A program made the translations under genes and the position numbers. The notes below the pieces were generated by a model. That model was not told the DNA's origin. It did no database searches and saw only the letters and a list, made by a program, of their open reading frames with translations. Of a DNA stretch of 64,000 bases, positions 33,351 through 38,242 are shown piece after piece. Origin of the DNA: Crocinitomix algicola (lineage in GTDB: Bacteria; Bacteroidota; Bacteroidia; Flavobacteriales_D; Crocinitomicaceae); contig NZ_LYPF02000019.1 of NCBI RefSeq assembly GCF_001661595.2, forward strand, positions 1 through 64,000. The letters are read 5' to 3'. Numbering within the stretch: the stretch's first letter is position 1; the number at the start of each line of letters is the position of its first letter.

Positions 33351-33557
33351 ATGGAATGGACTGAAGAACGAAAACGAATGGCGTATTGGATAGCAGGAAT
33401 TATCATCGTGCTATTTATTGTTTTATTAATGCTAAAATTTTGGGTGACTTCTTTAGTCGGTTTAGCCGCTTTTGGACTTGGCTTTTATTTTGGTCGAAAA
33501 AGTGGTGATTCTGCTGACGATCATAGTAATAAAAGGAAAAGAGAAGGGTTTTTATAG
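33351..33557 (+). CDS. Small membrane protein
   Basis: This 68-residue protein has a charged head (MEWTEERKRM), hydrophobic helices at about 12-29 and 32-46 that may be one hairpin, and a basic tail (SNKRKREGFL). It starts one base after alaS ends, so it is translated from the same mRNA. No family is recognised. Its 3' end overlaps the convergent beta-barrel gene by six bases. Confidence 0.7.
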   Translation: MEWTEERKRMAYWIAGIIIVLFIVLLMLKFWVTSLVGLAAFGLGFYFGRKSGDSADDHSNKRKREGFL

Positions 33558-35123
33558 CCTAATTCCCAATCCAATGCCTATATGGGTATAGTCAAAGCTT
33601 TTGTTAAAAGTAGATGTCCCAAGCGATTTGCCAATTACAGGACGATATTGGAGTGTTGAACTTAAGTATAGATTGCTCCAAAAGTTATAGTGTAAGCGAA
33701 CACCAAGAGCAATGTCCGTGTAAAACTTTCTGTAAATGCTATTTCGGTCAGTAAAAGAATAAAAGGCATCGTTTTTTTGATAAATTCCCTCAGAATTTGT
33801 TCGAAAGTTAAATCGTAAGGCTGCATATAAATCCAATTGTATGCGATTAAAATTCATTTGCGTGCCGAATGAAATAGGGATGTGAACATAAGTTACTTTA
33901 TTTGTTCCTCTAACATCTCGTTGATGAATCGATTTCTCGACTGAATACACGGAATTTGTATCTAATAATCCATAGGTAGAATCAACTGCCACCAAAATAG
34001 TGTCAAGTACCGCACCAGAAACTTCATCATAAATTATTTCTTCTTCATAATCATAATTATATCCGTATTCATATTCATAGCTTTCAATGGCCCGTGTAGT
34101 TTGTATCGATCGCTTAAAATTAAATTCTTCTTCAAACTTTGTATAACCAAGTCCAGAACCAAATGTAAGTCCATTATTTAATCGGTATGTAAAATCAAAG
34201 TTAGTTTGTTTTCCAATTTGGTCAGTGCCGGCATTTTCATAAATTGTTTTTTCATGTTGGGTATTAGCCGAATAAGAGGAGTTAACTTTGTTGAATCCTG
34301 TAGTTAAGGTAAGCATCCATGGTTGGGATTTAATCTTTTTTAAATTGGGGTCAATTGGAATCATTGCAGGAATATGAGTGCTGTCTAGTTCCGCAATTTT
34401 GGAAATATCCGCATTTTTATCCTTATTCAAATTTTGCTTTTTTGTATCTATTGAACTTTCAGGAACTTGTGCCGTAATTGAAGAGGAGTCTATCGTTTCT
34501 TTTAATGGAGTATTAGTGTCATCAAGTTCAGCTTTGATTTGTCTATTATGGTTTACTTGTTTTGATGTGTTAATTTGCTTGTTTTCAACTTGTTCTTCTG
34601 TTCGATATTGATTAACTATACTAGCGCTACTTGAGTTTACTTTTGATTCGGATGAGTTAGTTTGTACTTCTTTCGTTTTTAACGGTGTGGAGGTATATTT
34701 TTTGCCTTTATTGACTACACTATTCTTGGATTTAACATTCTTTTGCTCGCTAATTTGGATCGTGTTTTGAGTTGTTCCGTTATTTTTTGAATTGATTGGA
34801 TGTTTTTGTGACGACGGAGTTTCAACTAAAGTGTTAATATCTGTTGATTCAAGATCGAGTTCTGCGGCATCACTATAAAAATTTTGAGGAGCGGTTATTG
34901 CCGTATCAACTAAGGGTGTTTGTGTATCAGTTTGGTTTATAAAGGGAATTGTTATTATCCCACCTATAAAAACAATACTCAACCATATAAAGGCGGTTTT
35001 GCGATTAGTATTAAAGCCTAGAGACTCATCAATATTTGATTTAATATGCTCAGGAACCGTATGCATCTCACCACCAAGTTCGGCTTGATACAAATCATCG
35101 ATATTTTTAAATTCTTTACCCAT
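33552..35123 (-). CDS. Anti-sigma-like protein with transmembrane helix, long linker and C-terminal beta-barrel
   Basis: This 523-residue protein starts with a short soluble head (1-41, FKNIDDLYQAELGGEMHTVP) with no signal peptide. One helix (43-62) follows, then about 200 residues rich in S, T, N, Q and K (for example TNSSESKVNSSSASIVNQY), and a C-terminal outer-membrane-type beta-barrel (about 275-523, LTLTTGFNKVNSSYSAN, NGLTFGSGLGYTKFEEEF, HIPISFGTQMNF, GIGLGIRL). The gene overlaps the ECF sigma gene by eight bases. In Bacteroidota such pairs are regulators of surface functions, so it is inferred to hold the sigma factor at the membrane through its head. How one chain spans both membranes is unresolved. 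Confidence 0.8.
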   Translation of the reverse strand: MGKEFKNIDDLYQAELGGEMHTVPEHIKSNIDESLGFNTNRKTAFIWLSIVFIGGIITIPFINQTDTQTPLVDTAITAPQNFYSDAAELDLESTDINTLVETPSSQKHPINSKNNGTTQNTIQISEQKNVKSKNSVVNKGKKYTSTPLKTKEVQTNSSESKVNSSSASIVNQYRTEEQVENKQINTSKQVNHNRQIKAELDDTNTPLKETIDSSSITAQVPESSIDTKKQNLNKDKNADISKIAELDSTHIPAMIPIDPNLKKIKSQPWMLTLTTGFNKVNSSYSANTQHEKTIYENAGTDQIGKQTNFDFTYRLNNGLTFGSGLGYTKFEEEFNFKRSIQTTRAIESYEYEYGYNYDYEEEIIYDEVSGAVLDTILVAVDSTYGLLDTNSVYSVEKSIHQRDVRGTNKVTYVHIPISFGTQMNFNRIQLDLYAALRFNFRTNSEGIYQKNDAFYSFTDRNSIYRKFYTDIALGVRLHYNFWSNLYLSSTLQYRPVIGKSLGTSTFNKSFDYTHIGIGLGIRL

Positions 35124-35676
35124 TCAGCACGGTATTTCTGGTAATTTGTTTCGCTTCAAGTTTTTTACGAATTATCTTCCTTGCTTTTGATAATTGCGTT
35201 TTTGAAGTATTGATAGAAATTCCTAAATAATCAGCAATTTCTTGATGTTTTAAGTTATCTAATACATACATCGTAAAAACTGTACGGTAACCATCAGGCA
35301 GTTCTGTAAGTATTTCATGAAGAATTTTTTTTAGATCAACTTGATCATCTTCAATATAAAGCTCTAACTCATCTTCAGCTTCAAAATAAGCCTCTTCTTC
35401 AACAAATTCGAATCTTTTTTCTTGTCTGTATTGATTAATTGCTTCGTTTATTACAATGCGTTTAATCCATCCGCCTAATTCGTAATCGGGATTAAACAAA
35501 TCTCTCTTGCGATAAATTTTAATGAACGCTTCTTGAAGGATATCAGCTGCTTTGTCAGTGTTTTTGGTATATCTTAGACATACGGTATACATAGCCTGAG
35601 AATAATCACGATAAATGATATCAAAGGCTTTTTTATTTCCCTTTATGAATTGCTTTTTCAGCTTATCTTGGTCCAA
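35116..35676 (-). CDS. ECF-family RNA polymerase sigma factor
   Basis: This 186-residue sigma factor has region 2 in DYSQAMYTVCLRYTKNTDKA and ADILQEAFIKIYRKRD, which bind core polymerase and the -10 region, and region 4 in LPDGYRTVFTMYVLDNLKHQ with the helix-turn-helix EIADYLGISINTSKTQLSKA. Between them is an acidic stretch (EEEAYFEAEDELELYIEDDQ). The start is TTG 35676, with AGGTAAG just upstream; no ATG lies before residue 29. The stop overlaps the start of the barrel protein gene by eight bases, so both proteins are made in step. Confidence 0.93.
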   Translation of the reverse strand: MDQDKLKKQFIKGNKKAFDIIYRDYSQAMYTVCLRYTKNTDKAADILQEAFIKIYRKRDLFNPDYELGGWIKRIVINEAINQYRQEKRFEFVEEEAYFEAEDELELYIEDDQVDLKKILHEILTELPDGYRTVFTMYVLDNLKHQEIADYLGISINTSKTQLSKARKIIRKKLEAKQITRNTVLNG

Positions 35677-35783
35677 GTCTTACCTATTCAAATTCAAATT
35701 AAAGACGATAAAATATCGCTTTGGTAGCGTTCATTTTCAAACAATACAGGCGTAAAGTTTAATAGGTTGTCTAGAAAAGGAAA

Positions 35784-36692
35784 TTAATCGATTGTTTGGA
35801 CCCTAACATCATATACGATGTCAGCATTTTTTGGAACTAAATCAACAAGTCCAGCATTACCATATGCTAATTTTGCTGGTATTTCAATAAAGGCATTTTC
35901 TTTGGTTTTTAATACTGACATTCCTTGATGTAGGCCGTCAATGACATTGTCATTTTCAAATTTAAAACTAAAAGGTTCACTGTTTTTGAAAGAATTATCG
36001 TAACGTTTACCGTTTTCACCTTTGGTATAGGCGAAATAGTCAAATGTAATTTTTTGATTTTTAGAGGGAGACTTTCCTTCAGGATTTATTTTCCATTTGT
36101 ATACTTTTACTCCTTCTTCTAGAACGATAGGCTTAATTTTTTCAACGATTTCAATTTCAACAATTACATCTGCTTTAGGTGGTACAATATTTAAATATCC
36201 TGCGTCTCCGTATGCCATAGCACTTGGTATCATAATTCGACCAATGTCACCAACATGCATTTTTAATAGCCCTTTTTCCCAGCCTTCAATCAACATTCCG
36301 ATATTAGTTTTAAGTGGCACAGGTTGTCCAATTTCTTGGTTCGAATCAAATTCTTCTCCCGCAGCTACCCGTGCTGAGTAATTAACAAGCACAACATCAT
36401 TTAATGCAATAGGATGATTAGTGTTTTTTTTAGTCCATTCAACCCTTAAACCACCTTCACCGTTATAGACCATTTCATTTATTTTACCATCGATAGAATC
36501 TTTCAATAACGAAAATGGTTGATCGCCCTCTCTTTCTAAACTAGCTAAACTATCACTCACATTGTTCACTAATTGAGATGAATCGATTGTAGTAGATTCA
36601 ATATCACTTGATTCTTCATCTGCAGATTGTACTCCATCCAAATTACAAGAAAGTAAGAGAGTACAAGAAATCAGGGAGAAATATTTAATCAT
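35784..36692 (-). CDS. FKBP-type peptidyl-prolyl isomerase lipoprotein with two FKBP domains
   Basis: This 302-residue lipoprotein (lipobox LLSC, C16) catalyses cis-trans isomerisation of X-Pro bonds, here in the envelope. Two FKBP-type domains are visible: LLIEGWEKGLLKMHVGDIGR with PSAMAYGDAGYLNIVPPKAD, then NVIDGLHQGMSVLKTKENAF with PAKLAYGNAGLVDLVPKNAD. ATG 36692 was chosen because TTG 36701 starts inside the upstream gene with a poorer signal. It overlaps the GldI-like gene by eight bases, so the two isomerases are coupled. Confidence 0.9.
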   Translation of the reverse strand: MIKYFSLISCTLLLSCNLDGVQSADEESSDIESTTIDSSQLVNNVSDSLASLEREGDQPFSLLKDSIDGKINEMVYNGEGGLRVEWTKKNTNHPIALNDVVLVNYSARVAAGEEFDSNQEIGQPVPLKTNIGMLIEGWEKGLLKMHVGDIGRIMIPSAMAYGDAGYLNIVPPKADVIVEIEIVEKIKPIVLEEGVKVYKWKINPEGKSPSKNQKITFDYFAYTKGENGKRYDNSFKNSEPFSFKFENDNVIDGLHQGMSVLKTKENAFIEIPAKLAYGNAGLVDLVPKNADIVYDVRVQTID

Positions 36693-37212
36693 TTTTGTCA
36701 ATTTTTAAGAGTTCAATATCGTAAATAACTGGACTTAACGGGGGAATTTTATCGGTGTCTCCTATAAGTCCATGTGCAGCTCGACTAGGAATTATAAATT
36801 TTGCTCTATCGCCGACAGTTAAATATTTAATGCCTTCGTGTAAACCACTTTCAATGTCTGATTTTTCAACCAGGAACGTTTCAGCACCATTTTCTTTTGA
36901 CGAGTAACAAATTTCTCCAGAAAGTAATGTGATTTCAAAGTCTACGGTTACGGCATCGCCAACTTTTGCAGAGTCGGTTCCTATCCCGTTTTTGTATATC
37001 ATGTAGCGTAAACCCGTTCCTGTTTCCTTCATTTTCCAGTCAGGTCGTGTCATTAAAAACACATCGATTTCATTGTCCTCTTCAGCAGCAAATTCACTAT
37101 TCATTTTAATTGATTCATCTTTTGACCAATTAGGATTCGCAACTTCCATTTTGGGATTGTCGTTTTTACAGGCAACTACAACTAAAATAAGAGCAGGGAG
37201 GAGGTATTTCAT
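36685..37212 (-). CDS. gldI: GldI-like FKBP-type peptidyl-prolyl isomerase lipoprotein
   Basis: This 175-residue lipoprotein (lipobox VVAC, C15) has one FKBP domain: GDAVTVDFEITLLSGEICYS, SDIESGLHEGIKYLTVGDRA and PSRAAHGLIGDTDKIPPLSP. Its size and its place next to an NrnA-like DHH gene and another FKBP lipoprotein match gldI of Flavobacterium, which is needed for gliding. GldI likely helps fold envelope parts of the gliding machine. The gene name rests on context and memory, so gliding itself is not shown here. ATG 37212 starts a signal peptide; the frame opens to TTG 37239. Confidence 0.72.
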   Translation of the reverse strand: MKYLLPALILVVVACKNDNPKMEVANPNWSKDESIKMNSEFAAEEDNEIDVFLMTRPDWKMKETGTGLRYMIYKNGIGTDSAKVGDAVTVDFEITLLSGEICYSSKENGAETFLVEKSDIESGLHEGIKYLTVGDRAKFIIPSRAAHGLIGDTDKIPPLSPVIYDIELLKIDKND

Positions 37213-37213
37213 T

Positions 37214-38242
37214 TTAAAAAACGGATTTATTTTCTTCAACGAATTTAGGTAAAATAGTTACAAATTTTTGAATTGCATCTTCCAATTTTCCTACAAATTT
37301 ACCGCCCGCAGCATTAAGATGTCCACCTCCGTGAAAATTGTTTCTAGCAAGGTTATTCACTGGAATTTCTCCTTGTGAACGCATCGATATTTTAATAATT
37401 CCGTCGGACTCTTTAAAAAACACGGCCATTTTAACACCTTCTAAAGATAAAACCTGATTCACCAAACCTTCTGTATCTCCTTTTTTGGCATCGAAACGGT
37501 CTAAGTCATTAGCAGAAAGCGAAATGTAACCAACATTAAATTCTTTTAAAACAACTAGCTTTTCGAGCATTGCAAAGCTTGTTAATTTTACACGGTTTTC
37601 ACTATTGTTATCAAAAATGGCTTCATGAATTTTTGAATGACTAAGTCCTTTGTTTATTAAAAAGGCGCCTATTTCATGTGTTTTTGGCGTTACGGATGAA
37701 AATCGAAACGAACCCGTATCAGTAATAATTCCGGTATAAATGCTTTCAGCAATGGCCTGGTCAATTTGAAACAATGTTTGTCTTGCTTCAATTAATTCAA
37801 AAATCATCTGAGCAGTGGAACAAATAGTATGATCAGAGAACATTAAGTCAACAAATTCAACATTAGGGTCTCTATGATGGTCAATCATAATTTTTTTCGC
37901 AGATGATTTTTCGAGTAAATCGTCCATTTTACCAATTCTGCCTGGTGAATTATAATCAAGACAGAAGATTAAATCAGCTTCGATGAAATGATTCTCGATT
38001 TTTTCAGGAGATTCTTCATAGGTTTCGATTTCGTCAAAACCAGTTAACCAATTCAAGAAATGCGGAGCCTTATCCGGGTGGCAAATTACCACATTTTCAT
38101 GTTCATTTTTTAAATAATGGTATAAGGCTAGTGAAGAACCGATGCTATCTCCATCAGGAGATTTGTGTGCGGTAATAATAATTTTTGAAGCCGCGGTAAC
38201 TAAGTGATTAAATTCTTCAATTTTGTCTGGAGTAAATGTCAT
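37214..38242 (-). CDS. NrnA-like DHH-family phosphoesterase
   Basis: This 342-residue cytoplasmic enzyme has the DHH and DHHA1 domains. Metal-site residues are H26, D30 and D32 in TAHKSPDGDSIGSS, FCLDYNSPGRIG, MIDHHRDPNVEF and the substrate motif HGGGHLNAAGGKF near the end. Family members hydrolyse oligoribonucleotides (nanoRNA), phosphoadenosine phosphate or c-di-AMP products; which one cannot be read. It ends just before the GldI-like start, so the DHH and isomerase genes look like one operon. Confidence 0.92.
   Translation of the reverse strand: MTFTPDKIEEFNHLVTAASKIIITAHKSPDGDSIGSSLALYHYLKNEHENVVICHPDKAPHFLNWLTGFDEIETYEESPEKIENHFIEADLIFCLDYNSPGRIGKMDDLLEKSSAKKIMIDHHRDPNVEFVDLMFSDHTICSTAQMIFELIEARQTLFQIDQAIAESIYTGIITDTGSFRFSSVTPKTHEIGAFLINKGLSHSKIHEAIFDNNSENRVKLTSFAMLEKLVVLKEFNVGYISLSANDLDRFDAKKGDTEGLVNQVLSLEGVKMAVFFKESDGIIKISMRSQGEIPVNNLARNNFHGGGHLNAAGGKFVGKLEDAIQKFVTILPKFVEENKSVF

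Follow-up and report, generated by a model that had tools for sequence, protein, structure and literature searches.

In the 64,000-nucleotide stretch of the Crocinitomix algicola genome that was analysed (hereafter the window), an ECF sigma factor gene with a TTG start (35116..35676, minus strand; 186 amino acids) is followed by an ATG-initiated gene for a 523-residue protein (33552..35123, minus strand), the putative anti-sigma factor, with a trans-envelope architecture of the Reo/Dma type. The two genes overlap by 8 bases (ATGGGTAA; 35116..35123, minus strand), and in relatives the junction is an overlap of 1 to 26 nucleotides or a gap of at most 16. The sigma protein matches the Pfam families Sigma70_r2 (5.7e-15) and Sigma70_r4_2 (5.6e-16), both above cut-off, and its best NCBIfam match is TIGR02985 (118.8 bits against a cut-off of 126.4). 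A stop codon lies two codons 5' of the TTG (35674-35676) with no ATG, GTG or TTG in between, and the next ATG is found only at residue 29, within region 2. Among the 13 loci read at this position, TTG is present in 10 and CTG in one; an ATG start was found in none of the 13, counting as misses L002 (apparently GTG) and L019, where the start was not placed. Such a weak start codon may hold the level of the sigma factor below that of its anti-sigma factor.

The 523-residue protein, a single copy in the 3.7 Mb assembly (search at E<=1), is divided into four parts: a cytoplasmic head (residues 1-43; 34995..35123, minus strand) with the motif IDxLFxxxF..PxxVKxxIDxxL, which is the predicted sigma-binding module; a single membrane helix assigned by hydropathy (residues 44-62; 34938..34994, minus strand); a polar, low-complexity tether assigned by composition (residues 63-262; 34338..34937, minus strand), two thirds of which is S, T, N, Q, K, E or D; and, at the C-terminus, a 261-residue domain. 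The original prediction of an ECF sigma factor coupled through an 8-base overlap to a one-helix barrel protein is confirmed by the coordinates of the open reading frames, the Sigma70 matches and the recurrence of the pair in relatives. Its single helix and its stretch of about 200 polar residues also stand, with the head extended from the 41 residues first proposed to 43.

Two genes for FKBP-type isomerases lie upstream of the sigma gene on the same strand (35784-36701 and 36685-37239), and in loci L055, L057 and L058 the sigma gene has similar-looking genes ahead of it, judged by eye. Also by eye, a DHH-like gene lies upstream on the same strand, and the neighbour on the opposite strand is alaS-like.

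Conservation of the pair and its promoter-like motif

Relatives of the 523-residue protein were found in 16 of 150 genomes of the family at E<=1e-3 (own genome included; some matches partial). Matches to the sigma factor were found in 225 of 299 genomes of the order at E<=1e-30 and in 41 of 198 genomes of a phylum sample at E<=1e-28, both counts including paralogues and the genome of the window. All 23 loci of other genera fetched by the sigma factor alone (L059-L081) have a next gene at -17 to +16 nucleotides from the sigma stop codon, encoding a protein whose helix begins at residue 41-47 and whose head looks alike by eye; one of these neighbours (L071) has only 145 residues, and eleven run past the end of the locus. 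With the anti-sigma protein or relatedness as bait, 21 of 24 loci (doubles included) have the sigma gene next to a relative, the exceptions being L005, which starts at a contig edge, L007, and L015, a match of 35 residues. The loci are mutually related, and many are doubles: L001/L027/L052/L086/L096 are the window itself; the others are L003/L022/L054, L006/L020, L008/L019, L009/L056, L010/L057, L011/L055, L012/L023, L013/L024/L058, L017/L070 and L021/L053, and L002 equals L018 over 4524 bases. The 23-member family alignment and the 30 upstream loci discussed below contain no known doubles. That relatives have the two genes in the same order, usually overlapping and with the helix at the same position, argues that the pair is not a product of chance.

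Within the 23-member alignment, K28 of the head is invariant and I8, L11, I31 and D32 are nearly so, and the helix starts at residue 34-50 (looser hydropathy threshold). The tether varies from 127 to 277 residues and, by its composition, length and poor conservation, is long and disordered. In the phylum sample of 29 loci, nine neighbours of the sigma gene are long (at least 455 residues, some incomplete) with head and helix, and 20 are short (142-301 residues); the short ones have no room for a tether and barrel, which argues in part against a general rule that such partners end in barrels.

Upstream of the sigma gene is a promoter-like motif, GRCAACY-N15/18-GTM (GACAACCTATTAAACTTTACGCCTGTATTG; 35742..35771, minus strand). 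The pattern was chosen from the same sequences in which it was then counted: 25 of 30 loci, that of the window included, have it within 1300 nucleotides of the sigma gene on the upstream side, compared with a mean of 0.47 (at most 3) in 60 shuffles and with one of 30 on the opposite strand, and 13 of 30 have a near variant within 220 nucleotides, compared with 0.12. This placement suggests that the predicted promoter is one from which the sigma factor switches on its own operon, a reading that fits EcfO-Reo, whose sigma gene rises 33-fold with the toxin BcpT (PMC9308784, available portions). Across the genome of the window the strict motif is not enriched (7 matches, compared with 6 for a reversed control) and reveals no regulon beyond the operon itself; besides the copy at the sigma gene, only that at C1:145006 precedes a start codon.

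With a looser pattern, and with gene types judged by eye, some loci have an extra gene between motif and sigma gene. It encodes an outer-membrane-like protein in L053 and L054, a small Gly-rich protein with DST repeats in L056, L065 and L073, and a secreted-looking protein in L072, while L064, L068, L069, L070 and L075 have another small lipoprotein-like gene and a further 540-760 bases in between. A small Gly-rich DST-repeat gene is also located ahead of the sigma gene in L002 (1998-2324).

The C-terminal domain and its putative surface loop

The C-terminal domain (residues 263-523; 33555..34337, minus strand) is assigned as an outer-membrane-type beta-barrel through relatives and a structural model. 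The window protein itself has no match to any Pfam or NCBIfam barrel family at E<=1, OMP_b-brl_2 (PF13568) included, and searches of PDB sequences with the protein and three profiles returned no barrel. OMP_b-brl_2 is matched at E<=0.1 by 9 of the 23 family members, the best at 6.7e-8 (L077; 33.2 bits against a Pfam cut-off of 27, the only one above cut-off among eight read singly). Ten scanned relatives gave OMP_b-brl_2 at 1.8e-4 (L081), OMP_b-brl at 0.06 (L023), MipA at 0.09 (L013) and no match in the other seven. Profile comparison by hhalign aligned the window's group (9 sequences) with a second group (11 sequences, of which eight were seen to match OMP_b-brl_2) over 217 columns, with a probability of 97.9% and an E-value of 3.9e-13. 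On a home-made scale, residues 263-523 contain 14 amphipathic-strand peaks compared with 7.9 +/- 2.1 in 2000 shuffles (p 0.004), and the last strand ends the protein.

A model of the domain, built from two sequences, has ten strands and is of low confidence (pLDDT 43, pTM 0.35); it was used solely for the class of its fold matches. By their titles, the 50 top-ranking VIA-align matches are all membrane beta-barrels, alone or within a complex, from KdgM (Z 11.5, rmsd 2.0, 117 residues aligned) to a Z of 9.0 at rank 50, where the tool notes a typical best Z of 7 to 8 and that low-confidence models can match meaninglessly. The best Foldseek match of the model has an E-value of 2.2e-3. A full-length AlphaFold model, also from two sequences, was set aside (pLDDT 28.6). 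On the OMP_b-brl_2 matches in relatives, the profile homology of the window's group to them and the low-confidence model, the C-terminus is very probably an outer-membrane barrel. The barrel-like terminus of the original prediction is thereby supported, and the fold search returned membrane barrels in place of the soluble beta-domain that was to count against it.

The longest loop of the barrel, by our own assignment of strands, spans residues 330-407 (33903..34136, minus strand); it is acidic (net charge -11), contains nine tyrosines and carries the motif D[ST]..D[ST]. If the predicted topology is right, this loop would be exposed at the cell surface. The D[ST]..D[ST] pair, a pattern chosen from the same sequences in which it was counted, is conserved in 20 of the 23 members compared with 3.1 expected from shuffled loops, and the loop could be a binding site.

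Type IX-linked cousins in the same genome

The genome of the window encodes two GldM frames (above cut-off when in-frame pieces are summed) and 15 matches to the PorP family, one of which is the product of an anti-sigma-like gene at another locus (L089:156-3308, contig C19). There, a sigma gene overlaps a gene whose product combines a different type of head with a helix and a PorP/SprF barrel (PF11751, 2.8e-28; TIGR03519, 105.1 bits against a cut-off of 90.55); a separate PorP/SprF gene follows. In the best 30 family loci of this sigma factor, its own included, all 30 neighbours match the PorP-type C-terminus, 29 of them also PorP, and all reach the end of the locus. Two further loci (L091:862-2860 and L092:1161-2943) encode anti-sigma-like, one-helix proteins with PKD and a CHU_C type IX signal domain, in genes that overlap their own sigma genes. 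The CHU_C matches are above cut-off (1.9e-7 for L091, 4.2e-13 for L092), and TIGR04131 on the L092 protein is below it (30.2 bits against 35). For the L092 protein, 28 of the best 30 family loci show just upstream a sigma gene that resembles the one at L092; the wide match counts for proteins of this type come largely from the PKD and CHU_C parts of other proteins and are unusable as prevalence. At a fourth locus (L090:82-2325), a sigma gene is followed by a gene whose product seems to have multiple head-like repeats ahead of the helix and ends in a weak match to OMP_b-brl (1.6e-4, below cut-off); a lipoprotein-like gene is next.

A head profile built on residues 1-36 of the barrel family (E-values set for 100 sequences) matches 27 of 29 neighbours of the PKD and CHU_C class, mostly weakly (10-27 bits), and none of 30 of the PorP class. 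Of the 27 ECF-like genes in the genome of the window, 22 had neighbours tested with this profile and three of these matched, one being the window gene. As the head stays constant while the C-terminus changes, it is best explained as a putative module for binding the sigma factor.

In the available passages of published work, PorP/SprF-like shuttles recognise type-B signals in F. johnsoniae (PMC12618676); PorA, a secretion-signal protein of Porphyromonas, functions upstream of the sigma factor SigP (PMC7712824); and one ECF sigma/anti-sigma pair of F. psychrophilum has a promoter class in common with type IX genes (PMC9723704). A literature search over titles, the beginnings of abstracts or passages, with subscription papers mostly outside its coverage, returned no paper about a type IX signal domain or PorP barrel on an anti-sigma factor. 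Of the leads from the analysis, such type IX-linked proteins are the most novel. A tentative generalization is that Bacteroidota may have trans-envelope anti-sigma factors of modular build that wire outer-membrane barrels and type IX secretion straight to transcription, one head being combined with a barrel (window gene) or with PKD and a type-B signal domain (L092 type), and a second head with a PorP/SprF barrel, a kind of protein to which type-B signals are delivered (L089 type). If so, the L092 and L089 types would report the exportability of type IX substrates or the occupancy of shuttles, and tune genes accordingly.

A probable trans-envelope switch and its published counterparts

Gram-negative bacteria usually need a relay to sense outer-membrane events inside the cell. 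A switch that leads from the outer membrane to transcription in a single chain has been described in gut Bacteroidales (PMC13088901, PMC9308784 and PMC13114119, each available in part), and the architecture found here supports the proposal, made for this pair from the outset, that a single chain connects the sigma factor with the outer membrane. That proposal dispensed with an anti-sigma factor; instead, by architecture and gene order, the 523-residue protein is itself the anti-sigma factor, as has been shown genetically for the published counterparts. There is little doubt that the genes form a sigma/anti-sigma pair at all, and the whole reading, as a trans-envelope switch of the Reo/Dma kind, is likely.

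At rest, the head of the 523-residue protein would keep the sigma factor at the inner membrane, with the helix as anchor and the tether spanning the periplasm up to a C-terminal barrel seated in the outer membrane. Upon a disturbance of that membrane, a failure to assemble the barrel or the binding of a ligand to the large surface loop, the chain would alter its state or be cut, and the head would free the sigma factor. The freed sigma factor would then transcribe its own operon from the GRCAACY-GTM promoter and, in some relatives, genes for outer-membrane proteins or lipoproteins along with it. Release by a protease is possible; that damage to the outer membrane or a failure in barrel assembly is the signal, and proteolysis the means of release, is a guess that may well prove wrong. 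The signalling of such pairs had initially been described as not worked out. Loss of the anti-sigma factor turns the regulon on both in Das-Dma (PMC13088901) and in EcfO-Reo (PMC9308784, PMC13114119), and envelope stress induces the latter, according to the portions available; that description holds in part, for the release step.

An alternative of lower probability is that the C-terminal domain is a ligand receptor, in which the D[ST]..D[ST] hairpin of the loop binds a glycan, a metal or a partner lipoprotein, and binding, not damage, frees the sigma factor. Conservation of the loop motif well above its expectation in shuffled loops is consistent with this, as are the small Gly-rich DST-repeat or lipoprotein-like genes seen by eye between motif and sigma gene in some relatives, although the window has no such extra gene at that position. 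Sensing of glycans has also been hypothesised for Dma2 by its authors (PMC13088901, passages available), whereas EcfO-Reo is induced by toxins and, as its authors propose in the accessible text, answers outer-membrane stress (PMC9308784, PMC13114119).

It is improbable that the tether senses the spacing of the two membranes mechanically, pulling on the head upon swelling or vesiculation. A single chain would cross the periplasm, but the length of the tether is variable, and even the shortest one, stretched at 0.36 nm per residue, would exceed the usual width of the periplasm and so be slack. In favour of such a sensor, loss of Dma1 or Dma2 increases vesiculation (PMC13088901, in the part available).

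An ordinary one-helix anti-sigma factor, with a soluble periplasmic beta-domain as its C-terminal half, is less probable still: the absence of a direct Pfam match in the window protein, the weakness of the models and the many sigma neighbours in the phylum that lack this domain would allow it, but relatives homologous to the window's group match OMP_b-brl_2, the strands are amphipathic with the last at the protein end, and the fold matches are membrane barrels. A signalling pair of the FecI/FecR type, suggested by an ECF sigma gene beside a one-helix protein gene in a Bacteroidota-like genome, was rejected as its defining parts are absent, with no FecR match at E<=1, no receptor-like open reading frame seen by eye at positions 30-40 kb of the window, and upstream genes of the FKBP type.

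The trans-envelope switch was compared with its nearest known counterparts. The OMP_b-brl_2 barrels match the barrel domain of relatives, the window domain being too distant for a direct match; it differs from them also in being fused to a head, helix and tether. The PKD and CHU_C anti-sigma protein of L092 in the same genome has a similar head, one helix and an overlap with its sigma gene, and that of L091 has one helix and an 8-base overlap but a head without a match to the head profile; both end in a type IX secretion signal domain, whereas the window protein ends in a predicted barrel.

EcfO-Reo of Bacteroides fragilis and Phocaeicola vulgatus, as described in the available portions of PMC9308784 and PMC13114119, has an anti-sigma factor that reaches from the cytoplasm to the surface, ends in an outer-membrane barrel and is encoded 3' of the sigma gene, a plan also predicted for the window pair. 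EcfO-Reo has a NigD lipoprotein regulon, whereas no target was found in the genome of the window beyond its own operon. The Dma proteins, according to the accessible text of PMC13088901, have the same four-part plan, adjoin ECF21 sigma genes and occur solely in Bacteroidota; in Dma3 a sigma domain is on the same chain. The architectural likeness to Das/Dma of Bacteroidales lies in an N-terminal part that in the window protein is predicted to bind the sigma factor, the one helix, the long disordered tether, the probable C-terminal barrel and the adjoining ECF sigma gene, while the window pair belongs to another bacterial family.

Thus, the window pair is by architecture a further member of a kind already published as EcfO-Reo and Das/Dma, to which the present analysis adds the conservation of the pair, the promoter-like motif, the conserved loop motif, the sharing of the head and the type IX-linked cousins. 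That another family has conserved the plan, sharing a promoter-like motif and a head joined to different ends, opens the signalling step to tests in other Bacteroidota and suggests an extension of the same principle to the type IX secretion system.
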